Origin: Pyrococcus kukulkanii
GTDB lineage: Archaea; Methanobacteriota_B; Thermococci; Thermococcales; Thermococcaceae
Length of the DNA: 64,000 bases
Reading direction: 5' to 3'
Assembly: GCF_041647995.1 (NCBI RefSeq)
Contig: NZ_JARRIB010000001.1
Location: 62,001-126,000, forward strand
Shown: positions 4,128-20,222 of the stretch, in pieces
Numbering within the stretch: position 1 is the stretch's first letter
How the letters are laid out: every line of letters starts with the position of its first letter
Program-made: the position numbers and the translations under genes
Notes under the pieces: generated by a model
The model's database searches: none
What the model was told of the DNA's origin: nothing
Seen by the model: the letters and a program-made list of their open reading frames with translations, nothing else

Positions 4128-4133
4128 AATCCT

Positions 4134-4409
4134 TCACCTCCACTCTATTTTGAGCCTTTCATCCTCCTTTAGACCCGCAAGGGCTTTAATCAGCAGTTGC
4201 CTATCCCTCTCATCCAGCTCCTCGAGGGGAATCAGAGGGGCATCAGCGAGCGTGATATATGGGAAGCGCTTCCTAAGGATATGAGCTGCTTTGGGGCTTA
4301 TCTCCCCGACTACCTCCTTCACCTCGAAGTCCCCCTCTATGTGAGCAAGACCAGCTCCTATGTGGGTCTTAAATCCAATATACGAACTCTTTACCAGCAT
4401 CCAAGGCAT
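4134..4409 (-). CDS. Small uncharacterised protein of the hydrogenase cluster
   Basis: I do not recognise this protein. It is about 91 residues, soluble, with a charged C-terminal half (residues 55-91 rich in Glu, Lys, Leu) and the segment ISPKAAHILRKRFPY. The reading frame stays open farther upstream, inside the hydrogenase small-subunit gene, but GGAGGG precedes the ATG at 4409 at good spacing, so I start there; this gives a 41-base overlap with the small-subunit gene. Its position between the small subunit and the formate channel suggests an assembly or accessory role for the complex. That is inference only. Confidence 0.65.
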   Translation of the reverse strand: MPWMLVKSSYIGFKTHIGAGLAHIEGDFEVKEVVGEISPKAAHILRKRFPYITLADAPLIPLEELDERDRQLLIKALAGLKEDERLKIEWR

Positions 4410-5184
4410 CCCTGACCCTCCAATACTCATTTTCCAGTAGTGCCATGCAGAAGGCCAGTCTGACATCGCCACATTTGGCGGCATAATCTTTAACGAGCCT
4501 TGCCAGCTCCTCTCTTGGGTTCTCACTCTTCTCTACCTGCTCGACGAGCTTCATGAAGTCCTCCAGGATTCTTTCCCTATCTAGGTAGCCGACGAGGTGC
4601 CTGAGCCTCTCCCTAAGGGTTAGCCTTATCCTTTCCTCAATCGGACCTTCTGGGAGTCTAAATTTCATGGTATCATCGCTGTACTCCTGATAGCTTAGCC
4701 TCTTTTCGACGAGTCCTATAAGCTGAGCTATCCCATAGATTATTTCCTCTGGCCTCGGTGGGCAGCCGGGGATGTAGATGACCGGCCCTATCGGCTCTCC
4801 CTCCTCCTTGAGATCTTCCAAGAGCTCGTTTATACCTCCCTTCCGGGGGTACTCGCAACTCTCTCTGCCGCTCTCGGGCCTTCTATAGATTGGATAGCCG
4901 TTGTAGAATATTCCTCCACTACAGGCACAGGTTCCTATGGCTACTATCACCCTTGGCTGTGGTGGCATCGCCTTTATCGTCTCCTTAGCACTGTAGTAGG
5001 CCTGCCTCGTGAGCGGACCAGAGACAAGAAGCGCGTGCGCATGTCTCGGACTTCCAACTAGCTTTATTCCAAAGCGCTCGACGTCATAGAACGGCGTGAG
5101 CACGTCGATTATCTCGATGTCGCAACCGTTGCACGAGCCCGTATTGAGGTGGAAAACCCATATGGAGCGGAGTTTGGGCTTCAT
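4369..5184 (-). CDS. Membrane-bound [NiFe] hydrogenase small subunit (NuoB/HycG-like)
   Basis: A 271-residue protein of the NuoB/HycG family that carries the proximal [4Fe-4S] cluster passing electrons to the NiFe site. Cluster ligands are visible as GSCNGCD near residues 16-22, GTCACSGG near residues 103-110 and IPGCPPRPEE near residues 148-157. The C-terminal 100 residues form a charged helical extension beyond the usual NuoB length of about 160, with low similarity to anything I know. It overlaps the ferredoxin-like subunit gene upstream by four bases. Electron partner and H2 evolution follow from the family and the cluster. Confidence 0.93.
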   Translation of the reverse strand: MKPKLRSIWVFHLNTGSCNGCDIEIIDVLTPFYDVERFGIKLVGSPRHAHALLVSGPLTRQAYYSAKETIKAMPPQPRVIVAIGTCACSGGIFYNGYPIYRRPESGRESCEYPRKGGINELLEDLKEEGEPIGPVIYIPGCPPRPEEIIYGIAQLIGLVEKRLSYQEYSDDTMKFRLPEGPIEERIRLTLRERLRHLVGYLDRERILEDFMKLVEQVEKSENPREELARLVKDYAAKCGDVRLAFCMALLENEYWRVRDALDAGKEFVYWI

Positions 5185-5678
5185 AGAACCACCTCCCTGC
5201 TGGCCCTTATCATCCTGTCAACTGTTCCCTTTCTCCTGCAATCCCTGCAGAGCCAAATCTTTTCCTCGAGCGCGTCTTCTTCCAAGACTTTCTTCGGAAG
5301 TATCTGAAGGGCCTTCTGAACCTGCCTGACGGTAAAGTCAGCGTACCTGCCGCAGTTCTTGCACCTCACAAGTCTGAGCTCAACGACTTCCACGTGATCC
5401 TTCCTATCGGATGATGCTGCCTCAAAGAAGTTGGTGAGCTTTATCGCACCGGTCGGGCAGACTTCCTCACAGCGAGCACAGCGGATGCATCTTCCCACGT
5501 CGAGGACAATCTTCCTCGTTCCCTTCTCGTAGTCGTCTATCCTAAGGATGGCATCGGGTGGACAGGCGTTGATGCAAGCCCCACAGCCAATACAGAGCAT
5601 TGGGTCTATCTGCGGGATGCCCCTGTATTCGGGTGGGGCCTCGAGCTTTACAAACGGATACTTCAGCGTTACCGTCAT
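5181..5678 (-). CDS. Hydrogenase polyferredoxin subunit (NuoI/HycF-like)
   Basis: A 165-residue electron-transfer subunit. Two [4Fe-4S] motifs are plain: CIGCGACINACPPDAI near residues 29-44 and CIRCARCEEVCPTGAI near residues 68-83. The C-terminal third contains CKNCGR and CRDCRRKG, four cysteines in two CxxC pairs that could bind zinc or iron, a feature of HycF-like proteins rather than NuoI of complex I. It lies one base from the large-subunit gene and overlaps the small-subunit gene. It is expected to carry electrons between formate dehydrogenase and the hydrogenase module. Confidence 0.93.
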   Translation of the reverse strand: MTVTLKYPFVKLEAPPEYRGIPQIDPMLCIGCGACINACPPDAILRIDDYEKGTRKIVLDVGRCIRCARCEEVCPTGAIKLTNFFEAASSDRKDHVEVVELRLVRCKNCGRYADFTVRQVQKALQILPKKVLEEDALEEKIWLCRDCRRKGTVDRMIRASREVVL

Positions 5679-5679
5679 C

Positions 5680-7428
5680 TCAGACCCTCCTTGAGGCCTT
5701 TATGGACAGCTTGTTGAACTGGGCCTGCGTCAGAACTTTTACCTTTCCAGTCTCGACATCCACTATCTGCACCCTCTCAGTGCAGGAGTAGCATGGGTCT
5801 ATTGAGGCCACTATGAGCGGTGCGTCGGCTATGGTGTACCCTCTCATCATGTCTGGAACGGCCGGAAGGTTGTTGTAGGTCGCTGCCCTTACGCGATACC
5901 GATAGAGCTTATTCCCAGGTCCAGTCATAACATAGTGGACGTTCTCCCCCCTCGGAGCTTCGGTGACTCCTATTGCCTCCCTGTAGGCAGGTATATCCTT
6001 GTATTCCGCCAGAATGTCGCCCCCAGGCATCATGTCAAGGGCCTGCTCGATGATCCAGATACTCTCCCTGACCTCTTCGATCCTAAGGAGGGCCCTAGCG
6101 AGGACGTCGCCCTCCTTGTAAACAGGAACCTTGAAGTCTAGATCCTTGTAGGCCGCATACGGATGATCCCTCCTGACGTCGAAGTCTCTGCCCGAGGCCC
6201 TTCCAAGGGGACCATCAACGTCCCACTCCTTGGCGAGCTTATAGGGGAGAACACCAACTTCCTCACAGCGCTTCACGAAGGTTCTCGTAGAAATTGTAGC
6301 GTCAACGAACTCCTCGAATTCAGTCTTGATATTCTTGATGGTTTTCTCTATGAGAGAGCGCCTGTACTCGAGAATGTCTCTTCTAACTCCTCCTATGAGG
6401 AGCATTCCGTAAGTTTTCCTGTTGCCCGTTAAGCGTTCAGCCAGCCACATGACGTGCTCCCTTATCTTCCAGGCCTTCATGAAGCCGTAGTCGTAGCCTG
6501 TGAGGTGACAGACTATTCCGAGGTGAAGGAGGTGACTGTGGAGCCTCTCTATTTCGAGAACTATTGTCCTTATGTATTCAGCCCTCTCAGGAACCTCTAT
6601 CTCACCGGCCCTCTCAATGGCCTGACAGTAGGCAGTTGAGTGAGTGCAACCGCATATTCCGCATATCCTCTCCGCTATGAAGCAGACCTGGTCATAGGTC
6701 AGCCTTCCCTCCACTATTTTCTCTATCCCCCTATGGGCATAGAAGCCACGGTAGTCAACATCCGTTATTGTTTCTCCCCTGACGTAAAGCCTGAAGTGGG
6801 CCGCCTCCTCGAGGGCGACGTGGTAGGGCCCATAGGGAACGACAAACTCGTTCTCTTTGGGCTTCTTGTAGGGGTAGAACTTCTCTCCAGGTGGACTGTC
6901 CGAGTAGTGGAAGTCCTTCCGGAGGGGATAAACATAGGACGGCCAGTCATCGGGGAGGACGAGCCTTCTCGGGTCTGGATGACCCCTCGCTTCAAGGCCC
7001 AGCATTTCCATAGCTTCCCTCTCGTACCAGTTGGCGCCCCTGTGCTTCGGCGTTATCGAGATGAACCATGACTCGTTCTCGGGTATGTAAGCCTTAACAC
7101 CGAGGTAGAAGTCCCCGGCCTTTCCGTTCACGCTGAGCCAGTATATGATGCTGAACTTACCGTTCAGGGGCCTCTCGTCGGTCGCTACCATTGTAGAGAG
7201 CTGAGTTTCCTTCCACTCAGGATGATCGAGGAAGTAGAGAACGATCTCAGGCAAATCTTCCCTCTCGACAGTGATGAGCCATTGGTTGTAGGCAACCTGC
7301 TTGACGTCCTTTATCTTCTCCCCAAATTTCTCGATGATATCGTCAAGATACTTCCGCGTAACTTCAACCCTCCCCTCAATGGGCTTTGATCTTCCCGCGG
7401 GAGCGTCTTTACCAACCCTCTCGCTCAC
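5680..7428 (-). CDS. Membrane-bound [NiFe] hydrogenase large subunit, NuoC-NuoD fusion (HycE-like)
   Basis: A 582-residue fusion of a NuoC-like N-terminal domain (about residues 20-170, with GANWYEREAMEMLG) and a NuoD/HycE-like catalytic domain. Nickel ligands are intact: RICGICGC with C256 and C259, and DPCYSC with C546 and C549. This makes it an active hydrogenase subunit rather than a complex I relative that lost nickel. About 31 residues follow the last cysteine, long enough to include the C-terminal peptide normally removed on maturation. It overlaps the NuoH-like gene upstream by four bases. The reaction is proton reduction to H2 with electrons from formate. Confidence 0.95.
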   Translation of the reverse strand: MSERVGKDAPAGRSKPIEGRVEVTRKYLDDIIEKFGEKIKDVKQVAYNQWLITVEREDLPEIVLYFLDHPEWKETQLSTMVATDERPLNGKFSIIYWLSVNGKAGDFYLGVKAYIPENESWFISITPKHRGANWYEREAMEMLGLEARGHPDPRRLVLPDDWPSYVYPLRKDFHYSDSPPGEKFYPYKKPKENEFVVPYGPYHVALEEAAHFRLYVRGETITDVDYRGFYAHRGIEKIVEGRLTYDQVCFIAERICGICGCTHSTAYCQAIERAGEIEVPERAEYIRTIVLEIERLHSHLLHLGIVCHLTGYDYGFMKAWKIREHVMWLAERLTGNRKTYGMLLIGGVRRDILEYRRSLIEKTIKNIKTEFEEFVDATISTRTFVKRCEEVGVLPYKLAKEWDVDGPLGRASGRDFDVRRDHPYAAYKDLDFKVPVYKEGDVLARALLRIEEVRESIWIIEQALDMMPGGDILAEYKDIPAYREAIGVTEAPRGENVHYVMTGPGNKLYRYRVRAATYNNLPAVPDMMRGYTIADAPLIVASIDPCYSCTERVQIVDVETGKVKVLTQAQFNKLSIKASRRV

Positions 7429-8360
7429 ATTCCCACCCCCAAGGACGCGAGCACCAAGAGAACGAGCCCGATAACAAATATCATGGTGTTCTGCCTGAGA
7501 GCTTGAATTACCTTCATGCGCGCCGTTGTCGCCTCTATAACCGCCGACAGGGCGTAGAGGATAATTAGGAGAGTTAGCTGTCCTATGAATATCATAGCAC
7601 CGCCAAGTGGCGTTGAGACGTCAACGTAGTTCTTCAGGAGAGGTATCAATAGCATGCTCGCGAAGAGCCATATCAAGACAACTCTTTTAGCTAATAGAGC
7701 CCACTTGAATAGCCCAAGCAACCTTCCACTATACTCTACGAGCGAACCTTCGAGTATCTCCGTCTCCGCCTCCGCTATGTCGAAGGGTATGAAGGCGCAC
7801 TCGACGTAGGCCCAGTAGCCTAGGAAGGCTAGGGCTAACAGCATCGCAAGGTTGGGTGTTGAGTTGAAGGCTAAGCTACTGATACTAAGTGTGCCTTCCC
7901 TCAAGGCCATTATTCCAACAGCTATGCCCAGTATCGGCTCGACACTAAGGATTAGCATCATCTCCCTATTTGCCCCAGCGTTTGCGTAGGTGTTATTCAT
8001 GAGGAAGCCAGCCATCATGAGGGAAACGGAGAATATCCCAAGCACGTAGACGAAGACGAAGATATCCCCGGAAAACGCTATCGGGGTGAAGTTACCATAG
8101 GGAAGTAGCATTCCAGCTGAAATGACAGCGGCAAGGGCGACATAGGGGGCCAATATGAAGCCTAGCCTGTCGGTTGGAAGAGTGGGCTCCATGGAGAGCA
8201 GGCTGGTTAGGTCATAATAGGTCTGGAAGATCGGAGGTCCCTGCCTCTCCTGGATTGTCGCCTTGATCTTTCTGCTGATTCCGTCGAGGAGAGGTGGAAG
8301 GACGAGGATTACGAGGAGGGAGGAAATCCCAAAGATAGCCCTCTCGATCATCTTCACCAC
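7425..8360 (-). CDS. Hydrogenase membrane anchor subunit (NuoH/HycD-like)
   Basis: A 311-residue protein with about eight transmembrane helices of the NuoH/HycD family, which links the peripheral hydrogenase arm to the ion-pumping arm. Conserved loops are visible: RQGPPIFQTYYDL near residues 38-51 and FIPFDIAEAETEILEGSLVE near residues 190-210. The latter, with its glutamates, is the loop next to the quinone site in complex I. It overlaps the large-subunit gene downstream and follows the large antiporter-like gene after a one-base gap. Confidence 0.93.
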   Translation of the reverse strand: MVKMIERAIFGISSLLVILVLPPLLDGISRKIKATIQERQGPPIFQTYYDLTSLLSMEPTLPTDRLGFILAPYVALAAVISAGMLLPYGNFTPIAFSGDIFVFVYVLGIFSVSLMMAGFLMNNTYANAGANREMMLILSVEPILGIAVGIMALREGTLSISSLAFNSTPNLAMLLALAFLGYWAYVECAFIPFDIAEAETEILEGSLVEYSGRLLGLFKWALLAKRVVLIWLFASMLLIPLLKNYVDVSTPLGGAMIFIGQLTLLIILYALSAVIEATTARMKVIQALRQNTMIFVIGLVLLVLASLGVGM

Positions 8361-8361
8361 C

Positions 8362-10422
8362 TCACAGGAGTGTCAAGACTAAAATTATTGCCAAAGTCAC
8401 AAAGGCCAGCGTTAAGCCCGCGTTGACCTTCCTGCTTTCCTCGTCGAGCACAAGGCCAAGCCCGCACAGTATCTTGACGAAGGGTGCGAAGATGAACTCA
8501 TCGAGGTAGAGTTCGCTGGCAGAGCGTAGATATAGTAGACCGGCGTTGGTTAGAGCCTTTGATATCGTACCAGATATTTCGTGGAGCTTCGTGCAGAGCC
8601 AGAGGTAAGCGTGACTCGTACTATCTGTTATCTTTCTGCCGAGCTTGCTTAGTTCATTCCCCCAACGATAGAGGAAGTGTATGTATTCCTCGAAGGCCTC
8701 GTAGTAGTTGCCAGCTTTCATCTTGTAGGCGTCTATTGGAACGGGTTCTCCGAGTGTCCAGGGCTTGTAGATTCTCTTGCGAATCGGGAATGCCACATAG
8801 AGCACAGTAAAAGCCACGCCGAAGACTATCACGAAGAGGAGCGGTTTGAAGAGCGTCTCCCCTCCAGCAGGCATTCCAGGAACCTTTATCATGATGAATG
8901 AGGGCGTTATGGTGAGCCACCCCGAGAGATCAGAACAACTAAGGATCTTTCCGGGCGAGACTAGCAGTGGAACTACAGTGGAGGGTATCAGGCCGAAGAG
9001 AAGGCACAACAGTGCCAAGAGACCCTTAGCAATAAGCATCTCAATTGGAACCTCTTTGGCCTCCTTGGTCAGCTCGTTGGGCTCACCTCCGAAGGCTGTC
9101 GTATAGAACTTGAGGAAAGATGCAAGGGTCACAGAGCTTATGAAGAGGGCAAAGATGCCAAAGATGACGATGACGATGTTTCTTGAAAGGAAGGTAGCTT
9201 GATATATCATCCACTTGCTCATAAAACCGTTGAAGGGAGGAACTCCAGCTATCGACATTGCCGCCACGAAAGTGAAGACCGCAGTGACTGGCATGAGCTT
9301 TGCAAGTCCGGCGAGCTTGTTGAGATCCTTACTTCTCGTCCTGTAGAGGATGGAACCGGCCGAGAGGAAGAGCAAACCCTTAAAGATTGCATGATTAAGG
9401 AGGTGATAAAGCCCAGCGGCCAAAGCTATCGCTCCGAAGGCTGCCCACTCGCCGCCCTTGGCGAGGAAGAGGATTCCGGTGCCTACTCCGAGCCAGATGT
9501 AACCCATCTGACCAACGCTATGATAGGCGAGAAGCCTCTTGGCATCGGTCTGCTTGAGGGCATAGAGCGTTCCAACGGTTAAGGTTATTGCACCTATGGC
9601 CCCAACAATGTAGCCAAAAATCTCTGTCGGCTTCATGACGAAGCATGTGAGCCTGACTAGGCCGTAGACGGCAACTTTAATCATGGCACCGCTCATCAAT
9701 GCTGAAACGTTGCTTGGGGCTATCGGATGGGCATCCGGTAGCCAGAAGTGAATCGGAACAACGCCGGCCTTGCTGCCAAAGCCTATGAGAAACAAGAGGT
9801 AGTAGATTGCCCCAAGATGGAGCTTGGACAGGTTCGCGAAGTCCAAGCCCTCCACTGAACCTGTCTTGGCGTAGAGCAAGGCCAGGGCCAAGAGAAGAGG
9901 CAGTGTGCTAGTAATGTGCATGGTGACGAAGTACTTCCAGCCGGCCTTCCTGACGTGATCCTCGTTGTGCTCCCATATCATAAGCAGGTAAGAGGCTAGG
10001 GTCATCACTTCCCAGAAGAACACGAACCAGAGCAAGTTGGCCACCGTTACTATGAGTATCATTGAAAGCATGAAGGTCGAGTAGAGAATTATGTAGACCC
10101 ATCCTCTTCCGAGCTTCTTGTAGGACTCCATGTAGCGCGGGGAGTAAAGTGAGGTAGCTAGCCCAAGGATGCCGAGAACCATGCAGAGTATCAAAGAGAG
10201 CCCATCAATGTGGAAGGAAATTCCGACCAGGGTTAAGTCGATGGCCCCTCCCCTTACCGCGGTGGGTAAGGCCTCGATTACGAAGGCCAACAGTGCCAGT
10301 GAAGCCAACGCCGTGAAGCCGTGCCCAACGCGAATTGACTTCTCATAGTTGTTCCTGAGGGGTAGGACTGCAAGCATCGAAGCCATATAAAGGCCTAACG
10401 TGAGAGTGAAAAACTCCATCAT
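8362..10422 (-). CDS. Proton-translocating antiporter-like subunit (NuoL/HyfB/HycC-like, 686 aa)
   Basis: A large membrane protein of the Proton_antipo_M family with about 16 helices. The fifth-helix segment FFWEVMTLASYLLMIWEH (with its essential-type glutamate) and GSKAGVVPIHFWLPDAHP (lysine and histidine) are diagnostic. A long C-terminal extension beyond residue 500 includes a soluble amphipathic stretch and a last transmembrane helix, as in NuoL/HycC, where a lateral helix spans the membrane arm. It lies in the middle of the hydrogenase operon. Three such subunits in this module suggest multiple ion pathways; stoichiometry is not known from sequence. Confidence 0.92.
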   Translation of the reverse strand: MMEFFTLTLGLYMASMLAVLPLRNNYEKSIRVGHGFTALASLALLAFVIEALPTAVRGGAIDLTLVGISFHIDGLSLILCMVLGILGLATSLYSPRYMESYKKLGRGWVYIILYSTFMLSMILIVTVANLLWFVFFWEVMTLASYLLMIWEHNEDHVRKAGWKYFVTMHITSTLPLLLALALLYAKTGSVEGLDFANLSKLHLGAIYYLLFLIGFGSKAGVVPIHFWLPDAHPIAPSNVSALMSGAMIKVAVYGLVRLTCFVMKPTEIFGYIVGAIGAITLTVGTLYALKQTDAKRLLAYHSVGQMGYIWLGVGTGILFLAKGGEWAAFGAIALAAGLYHLLNHAIFKGLLFLSAGSILYRTRSKDLNKLAGLAKLMPVTAVFTFVAAMSIAGVPPFNGFMSKWMIYQATFLSRNIVIVIFGIFALFISSVTLASFLKFYTTAFGGEPNELTKEAKEVPIEMLIAKGLLALLCLLFGLIPSTVVPLLVSPGKILSCSDLSGWLTITPSFIMIKVPGMPAGGETLFKPLLFVIVFGVAFTVLYVAFPIRKRIYKPWTLGEPVPIDAYKMKAGNYYEAFEEYIHFLYRWGNELSKLGRKITDSTSHAYLWLCTKLHEISGTISKALTNAGLLYLRSASELYLDEFIFAPFVKILCGLGLVLDEESRKVNAGLTLAFVTLAIILVLTLL

Positions 10423-10425
10423 CCC

Positions 10426-11640
10426 TCACCACCTTACCCATAAATACTCGCAGACGAACTGGCTCACCATCGAGAGGAGCAGGAGCATTGCCACCGCTAT
10501 CACTATGCTTCCCGCGAGCTTCCTCTTAGGTTCCGGCCTACCGTCGCTGATTATGTACGTGTGAATCACCCTGAGGAACAGAACAAACGCCACCACCCAC
10601 TCAATGGCGGCGAAGTAAGCTAGACCCGGACTAACTGCCAAGAGGATTCTTATGACGTCAAGCTTGCTCAGGAAAAGGTTAAAGGGTGGAACACCCTCTA
10701 GGGCAAATATTGAGGTCATCAGTAGTCCAGCGGTGAGCTGGTCGGAGTTCATTATTCCTCTGACTTCATCAAGATTCCTCGTTCCAAAGACATAGAGAAG
10801 AGCTCCCGTCGAGATGAAGGCTGCTGCCTTAGCCAGACCGTGGGAAACAACATAGTAACCAATGCTCTTTTCAACGCCAGTAACTCCAAGTAGACCAGCT
10901 AAGATCAGCAGGTACATCCAACCCATGTTATCTATTGTTGACCAGGCAAAGAGCCTCTTGACGTCATCTTGGATAGAATAGCTGAGCATCGCAGTGAGCA
11001 TGCTAAGAACCGCCATAGCTCCGAGCGTATAGATTATCCACTCTGAGGTGCTCCAGCCAACGCTTTTAAGCACCCTTATTGTTCCATATAGGGCAAGTTC
11101 GACCATTGCACCGCTTAACAATGCCGAGACTGGACTGGGTGCTGCTGGATGGGCATCCGGTAGCCAGAAGTGGAACGGGAAGAGACCCGCCTTGGCCGCG
11201 AATCCAAGGAGAAACAGAGCAACGATAATATTCCCGTGAGCAGTTATAGATCCAAAGTTGAAGGTGCCATGGGAGGCATAGTATATTGCGATAGCTAGCA
11301 TCAGTGGCGAGGTATCAAGGAGATGCATTGTTGCAAAGTACTTCCACCCGGCCTTCTTGGCACTCTCCTCAGGCCAGTCATAGATTATGAGGAAATAGGA
11401 TGCAAGCGTCATTATCTCCCAGAGAAAGAGAAAGCTGAGCCAGTCGTGGACGAGAGGTATGAGAAGCATTGAGACGATGAAGATTAGCAGGGTTGGATAG
11501 TAAGGGATCTTCGGCCTGAAGGTGTAAATCTCTAGGTATCTCACCGATGCGAGTATTGCTGCCAAGCCGAGTATCGCAACGTTGAAGACAAATAGGACAG
11601 CCGTCCTGTCGAGTGAGAGTGTGAGAGTGAACTCGAACAT
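10426..11640 (-). CDS. Antiporter-like membrane subunit (MrpD/NuoN-like, 404 aa)
   Basis: A second Proton_antipo_M family protein, with about 12 helices. LFLWEIMTLASYFLI and GFAAKAGLFPFHFWLPDAHP mark helix five and the broken helix seven region. At 404 residues it is shorter than NuoN or MrpD (usually about 480), lacking part of the N-terminal helices. It sits three bases downstream of the next antiporter-like gene and three bases before the 686-residue one. Known for the family: it forms an ion channel half in complex I-like enzymes. Confidence 0.9.
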   Translation of the reverse strand: MFEFTLTLSLDRTAVLFVFNVAILGLAAILASVRYLEIYTFRPKIPYYPTLLIFIVSMLLIPLVHDWLSFLFLWEIMTLASYFLIIYDWPEESAKKAGWKYFATMHLLDTSPLMLAIAIYYASHGTFNFGSITAHGNIIVALFLLGFAAKAGLFPFHFWLPDAHPAAPSPVSALLSGAMVELALYGTIRVLKSVGWSTSEWIIYTLGAMAVLSMLTAMLSYSIQDDVKRLFAWSTIDNMGWMYLLILAGLLGVTGVEKSIGYYVVSHGLAKAAAFISTGALLYVFGTRNLDEVRGIMNSDQLTAGLLMTSIFALEGVPPFNLFLSKLDVIRILLAVSPGLAYFAAIEWVVAFVLFLRVIHTYIISDGRPEPKRKLAGSIVIAVAMLLLLSMVSQFVCEYLWVRW

Positions 11641-11643
11641 TCC

Positions 11644-13086
11644 TCACCACCTCACCTTGATGACGAGTGGATAGGCTATGTACGGAGCTATTATCGCGAG
11701 TACGAGTAAGATAATCATCACCGCCTTCATCAGAGGCGTTATCTCGACCTTCACATCACCTTCGCTGAAAACCATGCCGTGTATCCTCTTCAGGGACACC
11801 ATGAGGAATACGGCTGAGTCTATGAGTAGCAGGATAAACATGGCAATAACGAGGGCACTCTCACTCATCGCTTGAGCATTGCTGAGTATGCCAAGCTTAC
11901 CGAAGAAGACACCAAAGGGTGGGACTCCTGCCAAGCCGAGTAGCGCGAAGGTCCAGCTGTAGCCGACTGTCGGAGCTTTGATTAGGCCTCTTATTTTGTT
12001 CATATCGAGCGTTCCGAGGGCGTAGCTGAAGGTTCCGGCCGTTAGAAATGCCAGGCCTTTGATGTAGGCGTGGTTGAATAGCTGGAAGATGGAGGCCTGC
12101 AGTCCGCCTTGTAATCCGAGGACAGCTGTCGCGAGGGCTACATACATTAGGCCCGACTCGGCTATGGTCGAGTATGCGAGGAGTCTTTTTGCATCCCTCT
12201 GGAGCGGATACATGAGGATGCAGATTATCTGGGTGGCTATTATCAGGGCAGCCATGACGTAAAAGCCCTCCCTGGGGATTGGGTGCATAAACTGGATGAA
12301 CCTCGCGAGGAGGAAGACGCCCATCTCAACCATCGCCGCCCCATGGAGAAAAGCGCTTGCTGGTGTTGGAGCTTCCATAGCATCTGGAAGCCATGAGTAT
12401 AGTGGGAATTGAGCGCTCTTCGTGAAGGCCGCTATCATCACCGTTATGAAAACGATAAGCTTGAGGTGGTCGTCAAGGCCCGAGTACGCGAACAGGCTGA
12501 GGTCATGAAGCCTAGTCAGGCCGATTCCAACTGCCGTGTATAGGCCTATCATCGCTCCAAAGTTAGTAACTATCAGCGCCTTGTAAGCGGCCCTCTTGGC
12601 CTTGTTCGTCCTGTAATAGCTAACCACACCCCAACAGGCAAGACTCATGAGCTCAAAGAATATCAGAAGCTGAAGAACGGAAGAGGAGTAAATGAAGGCC
12701 AACGTTGCACCTATGAAGAGAACCATCCAAGCGTAAAAGCGGCCTTTACCCTCGTAAACTGGATGTTCCTTGTTGTCTGGGCTCATGTAGTCCTTAGCAT
12801 AGAGCATGAAGAGCAGACCTGCCGTTATGACGACCAAACCTACGCACACGCTCATCGGATCTATTAAAAGGCCATAGACCTCGCCAAAGCTCGCGGAGCT
12901 CACAAAAACCTTATGGATGGATGGCATTCCCGCAGAATAGAATTCATAAGCACCCACAAGATTCAAGATGGTTGCTAAGATGACCGTGATGAGCATGAAA
13001 TAGTCTGCCCTCTTACCGTCGAGTGTAAACAGTAAAAGACCTCCAATCAGTGGAATTAAAAAGGAAAGAAGGAAAAGTTCCTCCAT
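11644..13086 (-). CDS. Antiporter-like membrane subunit (NuoM/MrpD-like, 480 aa)
   Basis: The third antiporter-like subunit of the hydrogenase module, 480 residues with about 14 helices. The helix-five glutamate is in LLIFFELMSLACWGVVSYY and the lysine-bearing broken-helix region is AFTKSAQFPLYSWLPDAMEA, both characteristic. FNHAYIKGLAFLTAG marks the later conserved lysine helix. Length is normal for NuoM/MrpD. The gene lies six bases after the formate dehydrogenase ferredoxin gene, so soluble and membrane subunits are in one transcript. Confidence 0.92.
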   Translation of the reverse strand: MEELFLLSFLIPLIGGLLLFTLDGKRADYFMLITVILATILNLVGAYEFYSAGMPSIHKVFVSSASFGEVYGLLIDPMSVCVGLVVITAGLLFMLYAKDYMSPDNKEHPVYEGKGRFYAWMVLFIGATLAFIYSSSVLQLLIFFELMSLACWGVVSYYRTNKAKRAAYKALIVTNFGAMIGLYTAVGIGLTRLHDLSLFAYSGLDDHLKLIVFITVMIAAFTKSAQFPLYSWLPDAMEAPTPASAFLHGAAMVEMGVFLLARFIQFMHPIPREGFYVMAALIIATQIICILMYPLQRDAKRLLAYSTIAESGLMYVALATAVLGLQGGLQASIFQLFNHAYIKGLAFLTAGTFSYALGTLDMNKIRGLIKAPTVGYSWTFALLGLAGVPPFGVFFGKLGILSNAQAMSESALVIAMFILLLIDSAVFLMVSLKRIHGMVFSEGDVKVEITPLMKAVMIILLVLAIIAPYIAYPLVIKVRW

Positions 13087-13092
13087 AATTAT

Positions 13093-13593
13093 TCACACTC
13101 CAGTCAGCTTGATGCGTTCCGCAGTCTTTGCTAGCCTGATGGCTTTCTCTGTGAATTTCTTCCTTCTCTCTCTCATTATTTCGTTGAAGTCACCGTAGAG
13201 AAGAGCATCCGTTGGACAAGTCTCAACACAGGCAGGCAACTTCCCTTCAGCCCTTCTGTGGGCACAGAGGTCACATTTCATCATGATCTTATTAATGAGG
13301 TCAAGTTCCGGTATTCCGAAGGGACAGACTATACCGCACATGAGACAGCCGATACACTTCTGCGGTGCCAGCAGAACCGCACCATCCTCGTCGCGATAGA
13401 GCGCATTTGTCGGACAGACCTCAACACACGGTGCCTTCTCACAGTGGCGGCAGTTGAGCGCCATAGCAGCCATTTCCTGCCACTCGAATACGTTGATGAA
13501 GGACCTTCCGTTATGCTCCCTTTCACAGGCGACCTCACAGGCGCGGCACTCAATGCACTTTGAAAAGTCGATAAAGATGGTCTTCCTAGCCAT
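13093..13593 (-). CDS. fdhB: Formate dehydrogenase iron-sulfur subunit (HycB/HydN-like, 4 x [4Fe-4S])
   Basis: A 166-residue ferredoxin-type subunit with four cysteine quartets: CIECRACEVACE, CRHCEKAPCVEVCP, CIGCLMCGIVCP and CDLCAH followed by CVETCP. The pattern equals that of HycB and of beta subunits of molybdopterin oxidoreductases. It should take electrons from the catalytic subunit encoded five bases upstream and hand them to the membrane hydrogenase. No membrane anchor is seen, so association with the membrane is through the NuoH-like subunit. Confidence 0.93.
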   Translation of the reverse strand: MARKTIFIDFSKCIECRACEVACEREHNGRSFINVFEWQEMAAMALNCRHCEKAPCVEVCPTNALYRDEDGAVLLAPQKCIGCLMCGIVCPFGIPELDLINKIMMKCDLCAHRRAEGKLPACVETCPTDALLYGDFNEIMRERRKKFTEKAIRLAKTAERIKLTGV

Positions 13594-13598
13594 TCAAA

Positions 13599-15731
13599 TC
13601 ACCCCTTCACGACCTCAAACTCGGGTATAATCTTTGGAACTGCCTTCATCAGCTCCCTCGCTTCCTCTTCGCTTATCTTCGCTATTCTGCAGGCACAGGC
13701 CTTGGTCTCCGGTATCTTTGAGACCGGATCGAGGACATCGTTGGTGAGGACGTTTGCTCCCCAGTGCCACGGAACGGCTATTACCCCCTTCTTAACCGTC
13801 CTTGTGACCTTGGCCCTGACCGGGTAAACGCCCCTCCTCGTCTCTATCTTTATCCAGTCACCGGTCTTTATGCCGAACTTTTTGGCATCCTCCGGGTGTA
13901 TCTCGGCTAAAGGCTCCGGCCAGCGCTTGACGAGAGCCCTGCTCCTTCCTGTCATCGTGAGCGTATGGTATTGACCGACGTACCTTACCGTGGTAAGCAG
14001 GAACGGGTACTCCTCGTCTGGCATTTCGGCTGGCCCTCTGTAGTCAACCGCCGCGAGGTGGGCCTTCCCATCTGGAGTCAGGAACCTATCTTTGTAGAGA
14101 ACCCTCGTTCCAGGGTGATCCTCACTTGGGCACGGCCAGTGAATTCCCGCTAAGTTGGCCTTAAGCCTCTCAGGTGTTATGCCCCTGTACTGGGGTGTGC
14201 ATGCATTGATTTCCCTGAGGATATCCTCCGGTCCAGCGTACTCGAATCCCTTCGCTCCATTTCCGGAGAAGCCAATGGCCCTTCCGATCTCACTTATAAT
14301 CCACCAATCTGGCCTCGCTTCTCCAGGTGGCTTTGCCGCCTGGAAGCTCCACTGTACGCGTCTCTCAGTATTGGTTAGTGAACCTTCATTCTCGAGCATT
14401 GCAGCTGCGGGCAGAACTATATCGGCAAATTCCATAGTTGGAGTCGGAACTATGTCCTGGACAACCATAAACTCAAGCTTTTCAAGGGCCTTTAGAACAT
14501 GGTTCATGTTGGCGTCGCTTATGGCTGGGTTCTCACCCATGACGTAATAGGCCTTCACCTTACCCTTCTCTATAGCGTGGGTCGCCTCGATGACTGTTAG
14601 GCCCACCTCACCACTCAGCTCAACGCCCCAGAATTCCTCGAAGAACTTCCTCTTCTCAGGGTCGGTAACTGCCTGGTAACCCGGGAAGACGTTTGGAAGG
14701 ACTCCGAGGTCGCACGCTCCTTGAACATTATTCTGGCCACGCATGGGTGAAACTCCACATCCTTCCCTTCCCTGGTAACCACATATGGCTGAAAGTGTAG
14801 CAGCAAGTCTGACATTATCATGCCCGTGGGTGTGCTGAGTCAGACCCATCGCCCATGTTATAACGCCTTTTCCTGCAGTTGCGAAAGTTCTCGCGGCCTC
14901 AACTATAAGTTCCGCAGGGACACCTGTCACTTCCTCAACGAACTCTGGTGTAAACTTCTCGACAACTGCAACAACATCCTCAAAGCCCACGCATCTCTCC
15001 TGGACAAACTTCTCATCATAGAGCTTTTCCTTAATAATGACGTGGATAAGACCGTTAAGTAGAGCTATATCTGTTCCAGGGTAGTTTTGGAGGAATATAT
15101 CAGCGAACCAGGCAGTTCTTGTAAAGCGCGGGTCAGCAACTATAATCTTAGCACCCCTCTCCTTAGCCTTAAGGACGTAGCGGAAACCAACTGGATGAGT
15201 CTCAGCATAATTGTGCCCGATTATGAAGATAACATCTGCCTCTTCGATATCCTTGTAGGTGTTAGTCATTGCACCGGCGCCAAAAACGGCCTTAAGGCCA
15301 GTAACAGTGGATGAGTGGCAGAGCCTTGCACAGTGATCCACATTGTTAGTGCCGAGCATTCTAGCTAGCTTCTGAATGAGATAATTAGGCTCGTTGAAAG
15401 TTCTCGCAGAACCAAAGAACATAAGCTGATTCGGATCATCTTTGGCATACTCCTTGAGTCTCTCAGCTACCTCCCTTATCGCCTCACTCCAGCTGATCTC
15501 AACGAACTTACCATGCTCCTTGGCTTTGAGCGGCTTTTTGAGCCTATCCTTGGCTAGGAGGTATTCGATGACGGCATTACCCTTGGGACAGAGCTTACCG
15601 AGCTCGTTCGCAATGCCGGGAATATCCTTGGCATATTCTATGCCCACGGGATACCCATCAACACTCCTAATGTAAAGTCTGCACCCCACACCACAGTAGG
15701 GGCAGACTACAGGGACGAGTTTTTCACTCAT
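13599..15731 (-). CDS. fdhA: Formate dehydrogenase catalytic subunit, Mo/W bis-MGD, Cys form
   Basis: A 710-residue molybdopterin oxidoreductase that oxidises formate to CO2. The N-terminal [4Fe-4S] ligands are C10, C13, C17 and C48 (CPYCGVGC and KLCPKG). The metal ligand is a cysteine in RLC138H139, with the family histidine after it, so this is a non-selenium enzyme. The bis-MGD binding region and the C-terminal dinucleotide-binding domain (YVGQYHTLTMTGRS) are intact. The cofactor metal is probably tungsten in this lineage, which is inference. It is the first gene of the fdh-hydrogenase operon, with a promoter and a full SurR-type site upstream. GTGTGATG provides the ribosome site. Confidence 0.95.
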   Translation of the reverse strand: MSEKLVPVVCPYCGVGCRLYIRSVDGYPVGIEYAKDIPGIANELGKLCPKGNAVIEYLLAKDRLKKPLKAKEHGKFVEISWSEAIREVAERLKEYAKDDPNQLMFFGSARTFNEPNYLIQKLARMLGTNNVDHCARLCHSSTVTGLKAVFGAGAMTNTYKDIEEADVIFIIGHNYAETHPVGFRYVLKAKERGAKIIVADPRFTRTAWFADIFLQNYPGTDIALLNGLIHVIIKEKLYDEKFVQERCVGFEDVVAVVEKFTPEFVEEVTGVPAELIVEAARTFATAGKGVITWAMGLTQHTHGHDNVRLAATLSAICGYQGREGCGVSPMRGQNNVQGACDLGVLPNVFPGYQAVTDPEKRKFFEEFWGVELSGEVGLTVIEATHAIEKGKVKAYYVMGENPAISDANMNHVLKALEKLEFMVVQDIVPTPTMEFADIVLPAAAMLENEGSLTNTERRVQWSFQAAKPPGEARPDWWIISEIGRAIGFSGNGAKGFEYAGPEDILREINACTPQYRGITPERLKANLAGIHWPCPSEDHPGTRVLYKDRFLTPDGKAHLAAVDYRGPAEMPDEEYPFLLTTVRYVGQYHTLTMTGRSRALVKRWPEPLAEIHPEDAKKFGIKTGDWIKIETRRGVYPVRAKVTRTVKKGVIAVPWHWGANVLTNDVLDPVSKIPETKACACRIAKISEEEARELMKAVPKIIPEFEVVKG

Positions 15732-15828
15732 TCATCACACCCCCACATTGATGGACTATTTTGATCACTGTAGTTCTTAAATGATCCCCTGCATGTTTTT
15801 GTCCCTCACGAGTAGTTTCCTGCTCTCG

Positions 15829-15846
15829 CTTAAAACTCTTTTTTAT
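15829..15846 (-). promoter_or_regulatory. Archaeal promoter (BRE/TATA) of fdhA
   Basis: On the minus strand the sequence reads an A-rich BRE-like stretch (ATAAAAAAG) followed by AGTTTTAAG as TATA element. This predicts a transcription start near 15803 and a leader of about 70 bases before the fdhA ATG at 15731. It sits directly downstream of the SurR-type site. Confidence 0.55.
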
Positions 15847-15853
15847 CCGCCTA

Positions 15854-15870
15854 GTTTTTAACAAAAGGTT
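15854..15870 (+). promoter_or_regulatory. SurR-type binding site upstream of fdhA
   Basis: The 17 bases read GTT TTT AAC AAAAG GTT on the plus strand, an exact match to the published SurR consensus GTTn3AACn5GTT of Pyrococcus furiosus. It is centred about 25 bases upstream of the TATA element of fdhA, the position seen for SurR-activated hydrogenase promoters. Binding is inferred. Confidence 0.65.
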
Positions 15871-16024
15871 ATAATCATCTAGCATGGCTCAAATAGAGTC
15901 ATCAGAGAGTTTATTAACTCAATTTGTATACTGCGCCTTCTTAAGGTAAACAAAAATAATTTATGGCACAGAATCACCTAAAAAGCACTCCTTTATTAGG
16001 TTTAGAATGGTGAGAAACCTGAAG

Positions 16025-16060
16025 GAGGTCTTACTGCGTCTCACATTGTGACTAGACCTC
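16025..16060. repeat. Inverted repeat / potential hairpin in fdhA upstream region
   Basis: GAGGTCT at 16025-16031 is mirrored by AGACCTC at 16054-16060, and the enclosed sequence contains a second imperfect dyad (GTCTCACA/TGTGAC). It could be a terminator-proximal hairpin for the frh transcript or a protein-binding dyad. No U-tract follows it on the minus strand. Confidence 0.5.
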
Positions 16061-16297
16061 ATCTCGCTTAGGTGGCTAATGACTTCATTAATAGAGACAC
16101 ATCTACCCAATACCCTCGCTGAAAAACTGTGATGTTATCTTTGGGTTTAGATAAGCTAAAACCAAATGATAAATTCTTTCTGACCTTCACACCCTGCAAA
16201 TATCCCTAGATCTCTCCTAGCATAATACTGTGTTTCTATGGATCCTTCTTTTTTATTTTTCTGACCCCAACCCAACCACCCGAAAAAGTGAACATGA

Positions 16298-17128
16298 TCA
16301 AAGCAAGCTCATCATGTTCTTTTGCGCCCTAGCAAGTTTCTCCCTCGCTGCTCTGAGAATATCTCCCATCACATGAGAACCATCACGCACCTCAAGGTAC
16401 CCCTCTCTCTCTGCCCCCTTAACTAGTTCCTCTCCACGGATGTTACGTGTTATGAGAACAGTCCAGCCTTTCTCCTTTTCTATAAAGCCCGCCGATATGT
16501 CGCTCCACATTCCTGTATAATCGGTGCAGACAAGGCAGCCAGTCTGAAGATAAGAGTAGACCTCCTTGAGAGGTAGTTGAAGGAAAGAGTCGTCATGTTG
16601 TATCTCGAGGAAGCCTTCCTTGAGAGTAATGTTCTTTATATCCTCTGCCTTTATGTTATATTTTATCCTTAAGTAGTTCAGGAGAGCTTCAAAGGCAAAG
16701 GTTCCCGTACAAAATAGGCCTATTATATATCTTATCCTTTCCCCGAAGTCTGTTTCCAGTATTGGGAACTCTCTCATTTGACCGAAGAACTGAGCCTGAC
16801 AAGGTAGGCAGACAACTGCCACTTTTTTGAGATCTTCTTCTTCAATCTTAGCCTTCACTCTTGCTGCAAAGGGTACTATACTCCACTTGTTGCCAGCAGC
16901 CTCAAGGATCTCCTCCCTAGTTCTCGCAACAATAGCCTGTCCTTCAAATCCCCTAACTCTCTTTGCCGTCACAACACCATCTATAAGACCTTTTTCAAGA
17001 GCATAGATTAGCATGGCAGTAACTGCACCACCACTCGCAACCTTCCTTTTAAGTATCTCTTCATCCTTTGCCCTTGCGAGGTATACGCCCACTACGCTAC
17101 CGAGCAAATTATCGGTTATGCCTATCAT
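16298..17128 (-). CDS. frhB: FrhB-like hydrogenase beta subunit (flavoprotein)
   Basis: A 276-residue member of the FrhB/FdhB family, which in methanogens binds FAD and a [4Fe-4S] cluster and reduces F420. Recognisable segments are ASGGAVTAMLIYALEKGLID near residue 31, VVCLPCQAQF, IGLFCTGTFAFEALLNYL and GCLVCTDYTGMWSDISAG. The N-terminal ferredoxin extension found in some homologues is absent. Thermococcales are not known to make F420 as an electron carrier, so the physiological acceptor should be something else; work on Thermococcus onnurineus FrhAGB reported electron transfer to thioredoxin reductase. It overlaps frhG by four bases. Confidence 0.9.
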   Translation of the reverse strand: MIGITDNLLGSVVGVYLARAKDEEILKRKVASGGAVTAMLIYALEKGLIDGVVTAKRVRGFEGQAIVARTREEILEAAGNKWSIVPFAARVKAKIEEEDLKKVAVVCLPCQAQFFGQMREFPILETDFGERIRYIIGLFCTGTFAFEALLNYLRIKYNIKAEDIKNITLKEGFLEIQHDDSFLQLPLKEVYSYLQTGCLVCTDYTGMWSDISAGFIEKEKGWTVLITRNIRGEELVKGAEREGYLEVRDGSHVMGDILRAAREKLARAQKNMMSLL

Positions 17129-17805
17129 CTTTTCTCACCCCCCATAGAGAGAAGCTGAGAAGCACGCGGGCATCTTATATAACACGTTCCGCATCGAATA
17201 CATCTTTCTTGAGCCAATGTAGGTCTCCTGTCGATGAGTTTTATAGCTCCTGTCGGGCAAGAGAGTTCACATGCGCCACATCCGATGCAAAGGCCCGTGA
17301 GAACGATGTCATCGAGCAAGTCAAAGCCACTCAACTTCTTTATATTTGCGCTGACTTTGAAGAGTCTCAATCTTGCTTCATTGCCACTCATAAAGAACTT
17401 AAAGAAGGACTGAAGCATCTGAGGTGTAGGTGGGCAGCCAGGAATGGAATAATCTACGTTTATCACTGCATTTATGGGCTGAAAGTTCCTATGATCCGGC
17501 CTCGGCTCTTGGCCACCACGGCAGAAGCGTAAGATTCCACCGAAGGCTGCACAGGAACCAAAAGCTATCACGACATCTGCCTTCTTCCTGATATCCTTGA
17601 GCTTTTCAATTTTACTTGGTTCGTTCATGCAGACTCCACCAGTTATAATAGCAACATCGTAGTCATCAAACTTGAAGCCATTGTCTCTAAGATAAGATAT
17701 ATCTAGGTCAATTAACTCTATGAGCTTAGGATATGCACGGATTATGCTGACGTTGCAACCCTCACATCCTCCAATATCAACATGGAGAACCCTAAGCTTC
17801 TCCAT
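17125..17805 (-). CDS. frhG: FrhG-like [NiFe] hydrogenase small subunit with ferredoxin domain
   Basis: A 226-residue protein with an N-terminal small-subunit domain (VDIGGCEGCNVS, GSCAAFGG, SIPGCPPTP supply the proximal cluster ligands) and a C-terminal two-cluster ferredoxin part (CIGCGACELSCPTGAI and CIRCGTCYIRCP). This is the FrhG layout of group 3 hydrogenases. It is encoded between frhA and frhB, with five bases between it and frhA. It links the nickel site in FrhA to the flavin in FrhB. Confidence 0.92.
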   Translation of the reverse strand: MEKLRVLHVDIGGCEGCNVSIIRAYPKLIELIDLDISYLRDNGFKFDDYDVAIITGGVCMNEPSKIEKLKDIRKKADVVIAFGSCAAFGGILRFCRGGQEPRPDHRNFQPINAVINVDYSIPGCPPTPQMLQSFFKFFMSGNEARLRLFKVSANIKKLSGFDLLDDIVLTGLCIGCGACELSCPTGAIKLIDRRPTLAQERCIRCGTCYIRCPRASQLLSMGGEKR

Positions 17806-17810
17806 CTAAA

Positions 17811-18986
17811 TCACCTCAACCTAACGACGTGAGTTGTACATGGGATACATGGATCGTAAAGGCGTATTACGGCCTCAGCTGCTTTGACGCTCAGCCCCTT
17901 GGTCATTTCTTCCATTACTGGTATGTTAAACATCGTCGGAACTATTATCTTCAGAGACATGACCCTACCCTCTTCGCCAAGCTCTACAATATGTATCAAT
18001 GTTCCCCTCGGTGCCTCATAGACACCAACACCCTTACCAGGTCCAAAAATTATATTCCCAGTTCTAAAGGGCTGATTCATTTTTATTCCTTCTAAAATTT
18101 CTTCAAATCTTAAAAGGGCAAGCGTTGTGTCCTCTATCCTGGCCAAATGGAGCCCATAAAGGGAAGAGTCCCTAAAGTTTCTGTAAACTTTCATCCTTGC
18201 TCTTGGTCCGGTTTCTACTTTATGTCCCCCGTAGAAGGCCACAAGAGTTGTCGAATCTTTAGAATGCTGGTTCTCCTTTCTAAATTCATAGTATGGTATT
18301 GTTTCGATGGTTTTTATATCAATGTTAAATCTATCCCCATAAAAGAGACCGGTTGCAAGGTATTCATTCTCAACCTTCTTTTCTCTCAACTCTTCCGCAA
18401 CTTCTGTCTGGATATCCTCATCGGTGAGAAGGTGTCTAAGCTCTTCCCACTCATTCATAAGGGCTGGTAAGCAGGCTTTGAGGTTGTTAAAGACGCTCCA
18501 TTTAGGAACACTTAACATTCCCCCAATGGTCAGGTTTGACGGATGGGTCGCTGCTCCTCCAAGCTTTAAAAGGTAATCACTTATCTTCGCATGGAACTTC
18601 ATAAGCTTGAAAAGAACTTCGTTCCTCTTCTCTTTAGCGAGGAGGTCACCAGTAACCATAAGGAACTCAAGGATATGGCTTTGAACCCTGTTAATTAGTC
18701 CAATGGCTTCCCTCATCAGAAGTCCATTTCTTGGGGGTGTTATACCTATTGCATTCTCAATGGCTTCACTCGCTGCTATGCCGTGAGAGGCATGACAGAG
18801 ACCACATATCCTCATCACAGCTTCAACAGCGAAGAGAGGATTCTTACCGACGACGAGCTTTTCGAACCCTCTAACAGGGGCCGTTGCAACGAAGAAAGCA
18901 TCTTGAACAACTCCCCCCTCCTCGTAGAGTACTAACTTAGCTTCACCAGCTATTCGACAGACTTCATTTATGACGGTCTCACTCAC
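17811..18986 (-). CDS. frhA: FrhA-like [NiFe] hydrogenase large subunit
   Basis: A 391-residue catalytic subunit of a soluble group 3 hydrogenase. Nickel ligands are C61 and C64 (RICGLCHASHG) and C380 and C383 (DPCIPCTTH). Only five residues follow the terminal histidine, so there is a very short or no removable C-terminal peptide. The start is GTG at 18986, preceded by GGGGGTGATTAA. The gene leads the frhAGB operon with its own TATA and a SurR-type site upstream, divergent from thioredoxin reductase. Start and gene order match the Frh cluster of Thermococcus onnurineus, as I recall it. Confidence 0.93.
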   Translation of the reverse strand: MSETVINEVCRIAGEAKLVLYEEGGVVQDAFFVATAPVRGFEKLVVGKNPLFAVEAVMRICGLCHASHGIAASEAIENAIGITPPRNGLLMREAIGLINRVQSHILEFLMVTGDLLAKEKRNEVLFKLMKFHAKISDYLLKLGGAATHPSNLTIGGMLSVPKWSVFNNLKACLPALMNEWEELRHLLTDEDIQTEVAEELREKKVENEYLATGLFYGDRFNIDIKTIETIPYYEFRKENQHSKDSTTLVAFYGGHKVETGPRARMKVYRNFRDSSLYGLHLARIEDTTLALLRFEEILEGIKMNQPFRTGNIIFGPGKGVGVYEAPRGTLIHIVELGEEGRVMSLKIIVPTMFNIPVMEEMTKGLSVKAAEAVIRLYDPCIPCTTHVVRLR

Positions 18987-19055: not shown

Positions 19056-19115
19056 TTTGAACTGGAGGTTTAGAACAGAATTTTTTGTATGATTATCGAA
19101 ATTATAAACGCTTTT
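19046..19115. repeat. Ten-base inverted repeat pair flanking the SurR-type site
   Basis: AAAAGCGTTT at 19046-19055 and its exact reverse complement AAACGCTTTT at 19106-19115 are 50 bases apart. The left copy overlaps the frhA BRE. The spacing would place both on one face for a looping or dimeric regulator; this is speculative. Confidence 0.45.
19060..19076 (-). promoter_or_regulatory. SurR-type binding site upstream of frhA
   Basis: On the minus strand the 17 bases read GTT CTA AAC CTCCA GTT, an exact match to GTTn3AACn5GTT. The site abuts the frhA BRE/TATA and lies about 100 bases from the divergent trxB TATA. It is the second full match in this energy region. Confidence 0.65.
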
Positions 19116-19175
19116 GTTTATCTATTTAGGTAAGACAACTCTCTATTTTTAATACCCAATTATGTCCCAAAATGC

Positions 19176-19184
19176 TTTTAAATA
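19176..19184 (+). promoter_or_regulatory. TATA element of trxB
   Basis: TTTTAAATA, preceded by an A-rich BRE-like stretch (CCAAAATGC). The predicted transcription start is near 19207, leaving a short leader with GGAGGTGA before the trxB ATG. Confidence 0.55.
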
Positions 19185-19229
19185 TTCACCAACTATTGTG
19201 TGCGAGCGAGAGAAAGGAGGTGAATCGGG

Positions 19230-20222
19230 ATGTTTAGTTTAGGGGGGTTAACAAAAAGCACCATTGACGAGAGCAGGGTCTGGGATGTGATAATCATAGG
19301 AGCCGGACCAGCAGGATATACAGCTGCAATTTACGCCGCTAGATTTGGATTAGAGACTATAATAATAACAAAGGATCTTGGAGGAAACATGGCTATAACC
19401 GACCTAATAGAGAATTACCCTGGATTTCCAGAAGGGATAAGCGGCTCAGAGCTCTCAAACAGGATGTACGAGCAGGTTAAGAAGTATGGGGTTGATGTTA
19501 TATTTGATGAAGTTATTAGGATAGACCCAGCCGAATGCGCCTATTATGAAGGCCCTTGTCACTTCAGTGTTAAGACAGCTAACGGGAAGGAGTACAAGTC
19601 TAAGGCAATAATCATCGCGGTTGGGGCTGAGCCCAGGAAATTAAACGTTCCCGGAGAAAAGGAGTTCACGGGAAGGGGAGTTAGCTACTGTGCAACCTGT
19701 GATGGGCCGTTATTCGTCGGTAAGGAAGTCATCGTAGTTGGGGGAGGAAACACGGCACTTCAGGAAGCTTTGTACCTCCACAGCATTGGAGTTAAAGTTA
19801 CTCTAGTTCACAGGAGGGACAAGTTCAGGGCAGATAAGATACTCCAAGAGAGGCTTAAAAAGGCCGGAATACCAACGATTCTCAATACCGTAGTTACAGA
19901 GATCAAGGGAACAAACAAAGTGGAAGGCGTTGTTTTGAAGAACGTTAAGACTGGGGAGGTGTTTGAGAAGAAGGTTGATGGGGTCTTTATATTCATCGGC
20001 TACGAGCCAAAAACTGACTTCGTTAAACACCTTGGAATTACTGATGAGTATGGATACATAAAGGTCGACATGCACATGAGGACAAAGATCCCGGGCATAT
20101 TTGCAGCTGGGGATATAACCAACGTATTCAAGCAGATTGCAGTGGCAGTTGGCCAAGGTGCAATTGCCGCAAACTCAGCTAAGGAGTTTATAGAAAGCTG
20201 GAACGGAAAGAGTATTGAGTGA
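19230..20222 (+). CDS. trxB: Thioredoxin reductase (FAD/NAD(P)H)
   Basis: A 330-residue flavoprotein that reduces thioredoxin or glutaredoxin-like proteins. An FAD-binding motif (GAGPAGYTAAIYAARFG) lies at residues 24-40, the redox-active disulfide is C154-A-T-C157, an NAD(P) motif GGGNTA follows, and GIFAAGDI is the second FAD contact. The start is preceded by AAAGGAGGTGAATCGGG. The gene is divergent from frhA; in Thermococcus onnurineus the FrhAGB hydrogenase was reported to donate electrons directly to thioredoxin reductase, so the pairing is meaningful. The N-terminal 15 residues before the flavin fold are an extension. Confidence 0.95.
   Translation: MFSLGGLTKSTIDESRVWDVIIIGAGPAGYTAAIYAARFGLETIIITKDLGGNMAITDLIENYPGFPEGISGSELSNRMYEQVKKYGVDVIFDEVIRIDPAECAYYEGPCHFSVKTANGKEYKSKAIIIAVGAEPRKLNVPGEKEFTGRGVSYCATCDGPLFVGKEVIVVGGGNTALQEALYLHSIGVKVTLVHRRDKFRADKILQERLKKAGIPTILNTVVTEIKGTNKVEGVVLKNVKTGEVFEKKVDGVFIFIGYEPKTDFVKHLGITDEYGYIKVDMHMRTKIPGIFAAGDITNVFKQIAVAVGQGAIAANSAKEFIESWNGKSIE

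Follow-up and report, generated by a model that had tools for sequence, protein, structure and literature searches.

The DNA analysed here (the window, 64,000 nucleotides from Pyrococcus kukulkanii) contains a formate hydrogenlyase operon headed by fdhA, and matches to three Pfam families bear out the earlier identification of this gene, which encodes a molybdopterin formate dehydrogenase. The coordinates of the genes and control elements are given in Table 1. The fdhA gene, the formate transporter gene and the genes for hydrogenase-4-type subunits lie on one strand, with frh on their upstream side and mbh on their downstream side, which is the Group 1A fhl arrangement of Holden & Sistu 2023 (PMC10025317). 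Past the start of the window, at a distance of about 3 kb, an mbh-type antiporter gene carries two long SurR sites (C1:58847-58871). The frhA gene and the divergent thioredoxin reductase gene (trxR) share an intergenic region (19060-19230) with an exact long SurR site, and TrxR belongs to the SurR redox cascade according to PMC10025317.

Table 1. Genes and control elements of the formate hydrogenlyase locus (positions in the window).
Feature	Position	Strand	Remarks
Formate transporter gene	3099-4127		Within the formate hydrogenlyase cluster
Formate hydrogenlyase cluster	3099-15731	-	fdhA, Fe-S, antiporter, hydrogenase-4-type subunits, formate transporter; part of the ORFs scanned
fdhA, molybdopterin formate dehydrogenase catalytic subunit, 710 aa	13599-15731	-	Start 15731; PF00384, PF01568, PF04879
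Putative 5' leader of fdhA	15732-15810	-	Start estimated at about 23 bp from the TATA box (rule from PMC4247193)
TATA box TTTTAA of fdhA	15830-15835	-	Nearly invariant in 21 promoters; assigned by conservation
A-rich BRE-like element	15838-15844	-	15839-15841 invariant; placed as the Thermococcales BRE (PMC4247193)
SurR long motif GTTn3AACn5GTT, GTTTTTAACAAAAGGTT	15854-15870	+	Exact; palindrome 15854-15862, extra half-site 15868-15870
Second dyad, TTTGTTTAC-N14-GTATACAAA on the coding strand	15923-15954	.	Shared by the same promoters; separated from the SurR palindrome by about 75 bp, on its upstream side
frhAGB, F420-reducing-hydrogenase-like operon	16298-18986	-	TIGR03295, TIGR03294, TIGR03289, below curated cut-offs; upstream of fdhA
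Second exact long SurR site, frhA promoter	19060-19076	-	Intergenic, flanked by frhA and divergent trxR
TTTGTTTA word, arm of the second dyad	19113-19120	+	In the frhA promoter

FdhD (PF02634) was not found in the genome. In several relatives fdhD sits between frhB and fdhA, and the corresponding gap here (15732-16297) holds a remnant of 37 bp at 16168-16204 that matches the fdhD region of the P. yayanosii type with 92% identity. Since FdhD is also absent from 15 of the 26 other genomes searched, an active formate dehydrogenase may manage without FdhD here, or the enzyme may be impaired. No Rfam match to a structured RNA was obtained at 15650-16350 at E up to 1.

The motif upstream of fdhA matches the long SurR consensus exactly, as the initial annotation had claimed. 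On the coding strand of fdhA the site reads AACCTTTTGTTAAAAAC, with the palindrome on the side facing the gene. The distance of 16 bases to the TATA box holds when counted to AGTTTTAA and becomes 18 bp when counted to the TTTTAA core, the box being called by conservation. The site thus lies upstream of BRE and TATA and overlaps neither, the position that had been ascribed to an activator; SurR sites upstream of the BRE activate, whereas those overlapping BRE/TATA repress (PMC12401011).

A motif match by itself is weak evidence, because the genome (2.05 Mb) has 30 exact long sites compared with 21 matches to a reversed control pattern. The chance expectation of one match per 130 kb given earlier is arithmetically right for equal base use, but it has to be set against these 30 sites. 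The window contains two exact long sites where 0.30 are expected from shuffles. About 21 of the 30 genomic sites are intergenic; with an assumed intergenic share of about 10% of the genome, the excess is very strong. The genes adjoining intergenic sites include surR/pdo, an mbh-type antiporter subunit, shyB with an FAD-NAD protein, CoA-disulfide reductase, hypF and frh. The two other long fdhA homologues in the genome (C4:34225 and C4:105054) have no exact long site within a few hundred bases upstream.

An fdhA of the same type is present in about 25 Thermococcales genomes, and their promoters were compared in an alignment of 21 rows, from which one near-duplicate and one displaced row were left out; several rows come from close relatives and are not independent. 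The exact long motif is retained in 17 of the 21 promoters, and in 20 of them the distance from GTTn3AAC down to TTTTAA or TTTAAA is exactly 18 bp, so that the palindrome is kept at a fixed spacing in the orthologous promoters that the initial annotation had proposed as a check. The chance of a match per shuffled promoter is 0.0013 for the long form and 0.068 for the short form. Mean information per column is 1.37 bits in the SurR site and 1.49 in the TATA/BRE core, compared with 0.67 in the leader and 0.60 in the interval between the SurR site and the dyad. This conservation at a fixed position is strong evidence for the site, unlike the match alone. That the site is a non-functional chance or compositional match in AT-rich intergenic DNA, as the control count of 21 might suggest, is hardly credible in view of the fixed position and spacing and of the intergenic placement of most genomic matches, and the orthologue comparison rejects it for practical purposes.

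The displaced row (G056) is not an exception lacking the site. An extra gene stands between the promoter and fdhA and accounts for the displacement, and the SurR site, its spacing and the dyad are kept ahead of that gene. The inserted gene (L179:1462-2007) resembles acetate uptake transporters weakly and scores below the cut-off of that family. G007, a genome assigned to a different species of the genus, encodes an fdhA protein identical to that of the window, and its upstream region is 99.6% identical over 566 bp; fdhD was detected in neither of the two genomes. Scattered TGNNCA words number 31 in the 21 leaders as against 5.0 in shuffles (maximum 12). They are possibly a further operator, and the leader in the window has a single weak copy.

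The regulator itself is encoded in the genome (G000:C3:144916-145608). The identification rests on the match to PDB structures of PF0095 (2qlz, E 4e-115), to which the protein is about 75% identical. Its CxxC is kept as C-T-E-C (P0001). A long site also stands about 50 bp from the start of surR, and pdo is divergent. The motif, the fixed 18-bp spacing to the TATA box, their conservation and a SurR with CxxC are thus all present, and by analogy with other species reduced SurR would bind its site, GTTn3AAC(n5GTT), immediately ahead of BRE and TATA in the fdhA promoter. Bound SurR would help to recruit the transcription machinery and keep the operon on without elemental sulfur; sulfur would oxidise the CxxC, SurR would leave the DNA and expression would fall.

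In T. onnurineus, proteomics detected Fdh2 (TON_1563) in cells grown on CO, formate or starch but did not detect it on sulfur, where Fdh1 rises (PMC4463584). Counted against sulfur control are a formate hydrogenlyase activity that was about constant over five media, none of them a sulfur test (PMC11959275), and fdh2 transcripts of T. piezophilus that varied with pressure in cells grown with sulfur (PMC8595942). It is very unlikely that the site is a repressor operator. SurR does repress at some promoters where its site lies over BRE/TATA (PMC12401011), but here the site is clear of the TATA box, and Fdh2 in T. onnurineus is lower on sulfur, not higher. The sequence at 15854-15870 is therefore very probably a SurR operator of the activator type, through which sulfur would switch the formate hydrogenlyase operon off.

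A SurR operator at fdhA is an ordinary, well supported element that has already been described. For the Thermococci, Holden & Sistu 2023 (PMC10025317) proposed that SurR controls the fhl/nfd, frh and mbh operons of Group 1, with the same motif, the same operons in the order frh-fhl-mbh, the same place just upstream of BRE/TATA and the same role. That text gives no spacing, alignment or second element. SurR motifs have also been reported in single species, by Lee 2016 for Mfh2 of T. onnurineus (PMC4791640) and by Moalic 2021 for fdh2 of T. piezophilus (PMC8595942). The latter motif, 123 bp from the start codon in Table 2 of PMC8595942, is in the same place as the palindrome at -132 to -124 in G028, the genome taken as T. 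piezophilus; the table calls it short, whereas G028 has the exact long form on the other strand. Activation of the mbh type in P. furiosus (Lipscomb 2009, as cited in PMC12401011 and PMC10025317) has the same motif and upstream position. The target differs, being formate hydrogenlyase here. P. furiosus is not known to have a formate hydrogenlyase.

What is new is the fixed 18-bp spacing and a second dyad that is conserved in its arms and not in its spacer. Across the 21 promoters the arms carry about 1.0 bit and the spacer 0.34, and the spacer length is 13-15 bp. Conserved arms with a free spacer are the pattern of a dyad bound by a dimer. No copies are expected in the window by chance, and in the genome the dyad occurs without mismatch only at the fdhA promoter. 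A search with 14 fixed bases in 94 genomes gave about 32 matches, around half of them at fdhA promoters, compared with about 10 for the reversed control. These few matches, with the single perfect copy in this genome, rule out a widespread operator. A general SHI (hydB) element is ruled out as well, the dyad being present in few of 30 hydB promoters. A second match in G092 was dropped because it lies inside a coding region. In G090 a perfect reversed copy (L177:3822-3853) lies in the gap that separates the SHI hydrogenase operon (hydB) from a divergent redox operon.

The orthologous Mfh2 promoter of T. onnurineus has both elements, GTTNNNAAC and an inverted repeat (PMC4791640). That study mentions them in passing, by way of methylation, and does not spell out the repeat in its main text; we infer the repeat to be the dyad; the methylated adenine is inside the inverted repeat, and the sole GTMKAC there is the right arm.

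Words of the arm type are also found at other operons. In the genome they occur within 250 bp of intergenic SurR sites at 4 of 15 loci (mbh, fdhA, frh and shyB) and at none of the other 11, and five are found in 7.8 kb near SurR sites compared with five in 37.6 kb elsewhere. Provisionally, the arms mark hydrogen operons; the comparison is post hoc, and only some of the 11 arm-free loci have been identified as genes. In T. onnurineus (G025, which has the exact codh operator) five arm words in 32.7 kb fall in the codh, frhA, fdh2, hydB and mbhA promoters. This test is likewise post hoc, in regions chosen for these loci. EnfR, a Tfx-family protein, binds the promoters of codh, TON_1563 (fdh2), TON_0537 (SulfI) and TON_1582, in the case of fdh2 by EMSA (PMC10570040). 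If TON_1582 is mbhA, as it appears to be, four of the five arm words (codh, fdh2, hydB and mbhA) fall in the four EnfR-bound promoters and the fifth is upstream of frhA.

These observations suggest a promoter with two regulators, in which SurR sets the response to sulfur and a second protein, perhaps EnfR, binds the dyad and is required for expression at a high level. Such a scheme would add to the explanation by SurR and not replace it. We regard it as a possible reading, with the balance somewhat against it. It is favoured by the conserved arms, by their place beside SurR sites and in EnfR-bound promoters, and by the methylated repeat of T. onnurineus. The word TTTTTGTTTAC is common to the EnfR footprint in the codh promoter and the window, mfh2 is down 21.5-fold in the EnfR T55I mutant (PMC10570040), and an EnfR homologue with 78% identity is encoded at G000:C2:269666-270073. 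On the other hand, the effect of T55I could be indirect, the DNA of the arm test was chosen for these loci, most hydB promoters are without the dyad, and EnfR is present in 86 of 94 Thermococcales genomes, so that its co-occurrence with the dyad says little. G023, in which EnfR was not detected, has degraded arms and an intact SurR site, but this is a single case, and some EnfR-bearing genomes also have no good dyad.

The arm spacing differs from that of the 36-bp pseudo-palindrome described as the codh operator (PMC10570040), which is not recognisable in the fdh2 promoter of T. onnurineus (best 9/18, shuffle mean 10.9) and not above chance in its hydB promoter. The best score in the window, 13/18, equals the highest shuffle value and is not shared with T. 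onnurineus. An EnfR palindrome of the codh type at fdhA is rejected on the score in T. onnurineus, and EnfR is put forward, by analogy with T. onnurineus, as a candidate binder of the dyad. It is rather doubtful that SurR-activated hydrogen and formate operons of Thermococcales share a second cis element, with TTTGTTTA-type arms and the dyad at fdhA, that sets them apart from other SurR targets and serves as a co-activation operator for EnfR or an unnamed regulator. The expectation in the initial annotation that the operon is shut off by sulfur like the other hydrogenases is nevertheless incomplete, because it omits the second conserved element, which is consistent with the effect of EnfR on the T. 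onnurineus operon (PMC10570040).

SurR control of formate hydrogenlyase would tie the use of formate to the supply of sulfur in vent archaea and in candidate strains for hydrogen production. This link is already in print, and the comparative evidence added here is the fixed spacing and the conservation among orthologues. The upstream dyad is possibly an informative neighbour of the SurR site. If it is a second operator, it would offer a concrete place to address the question, raised in PMC10025317, of how fhl is controlled besides SurR.
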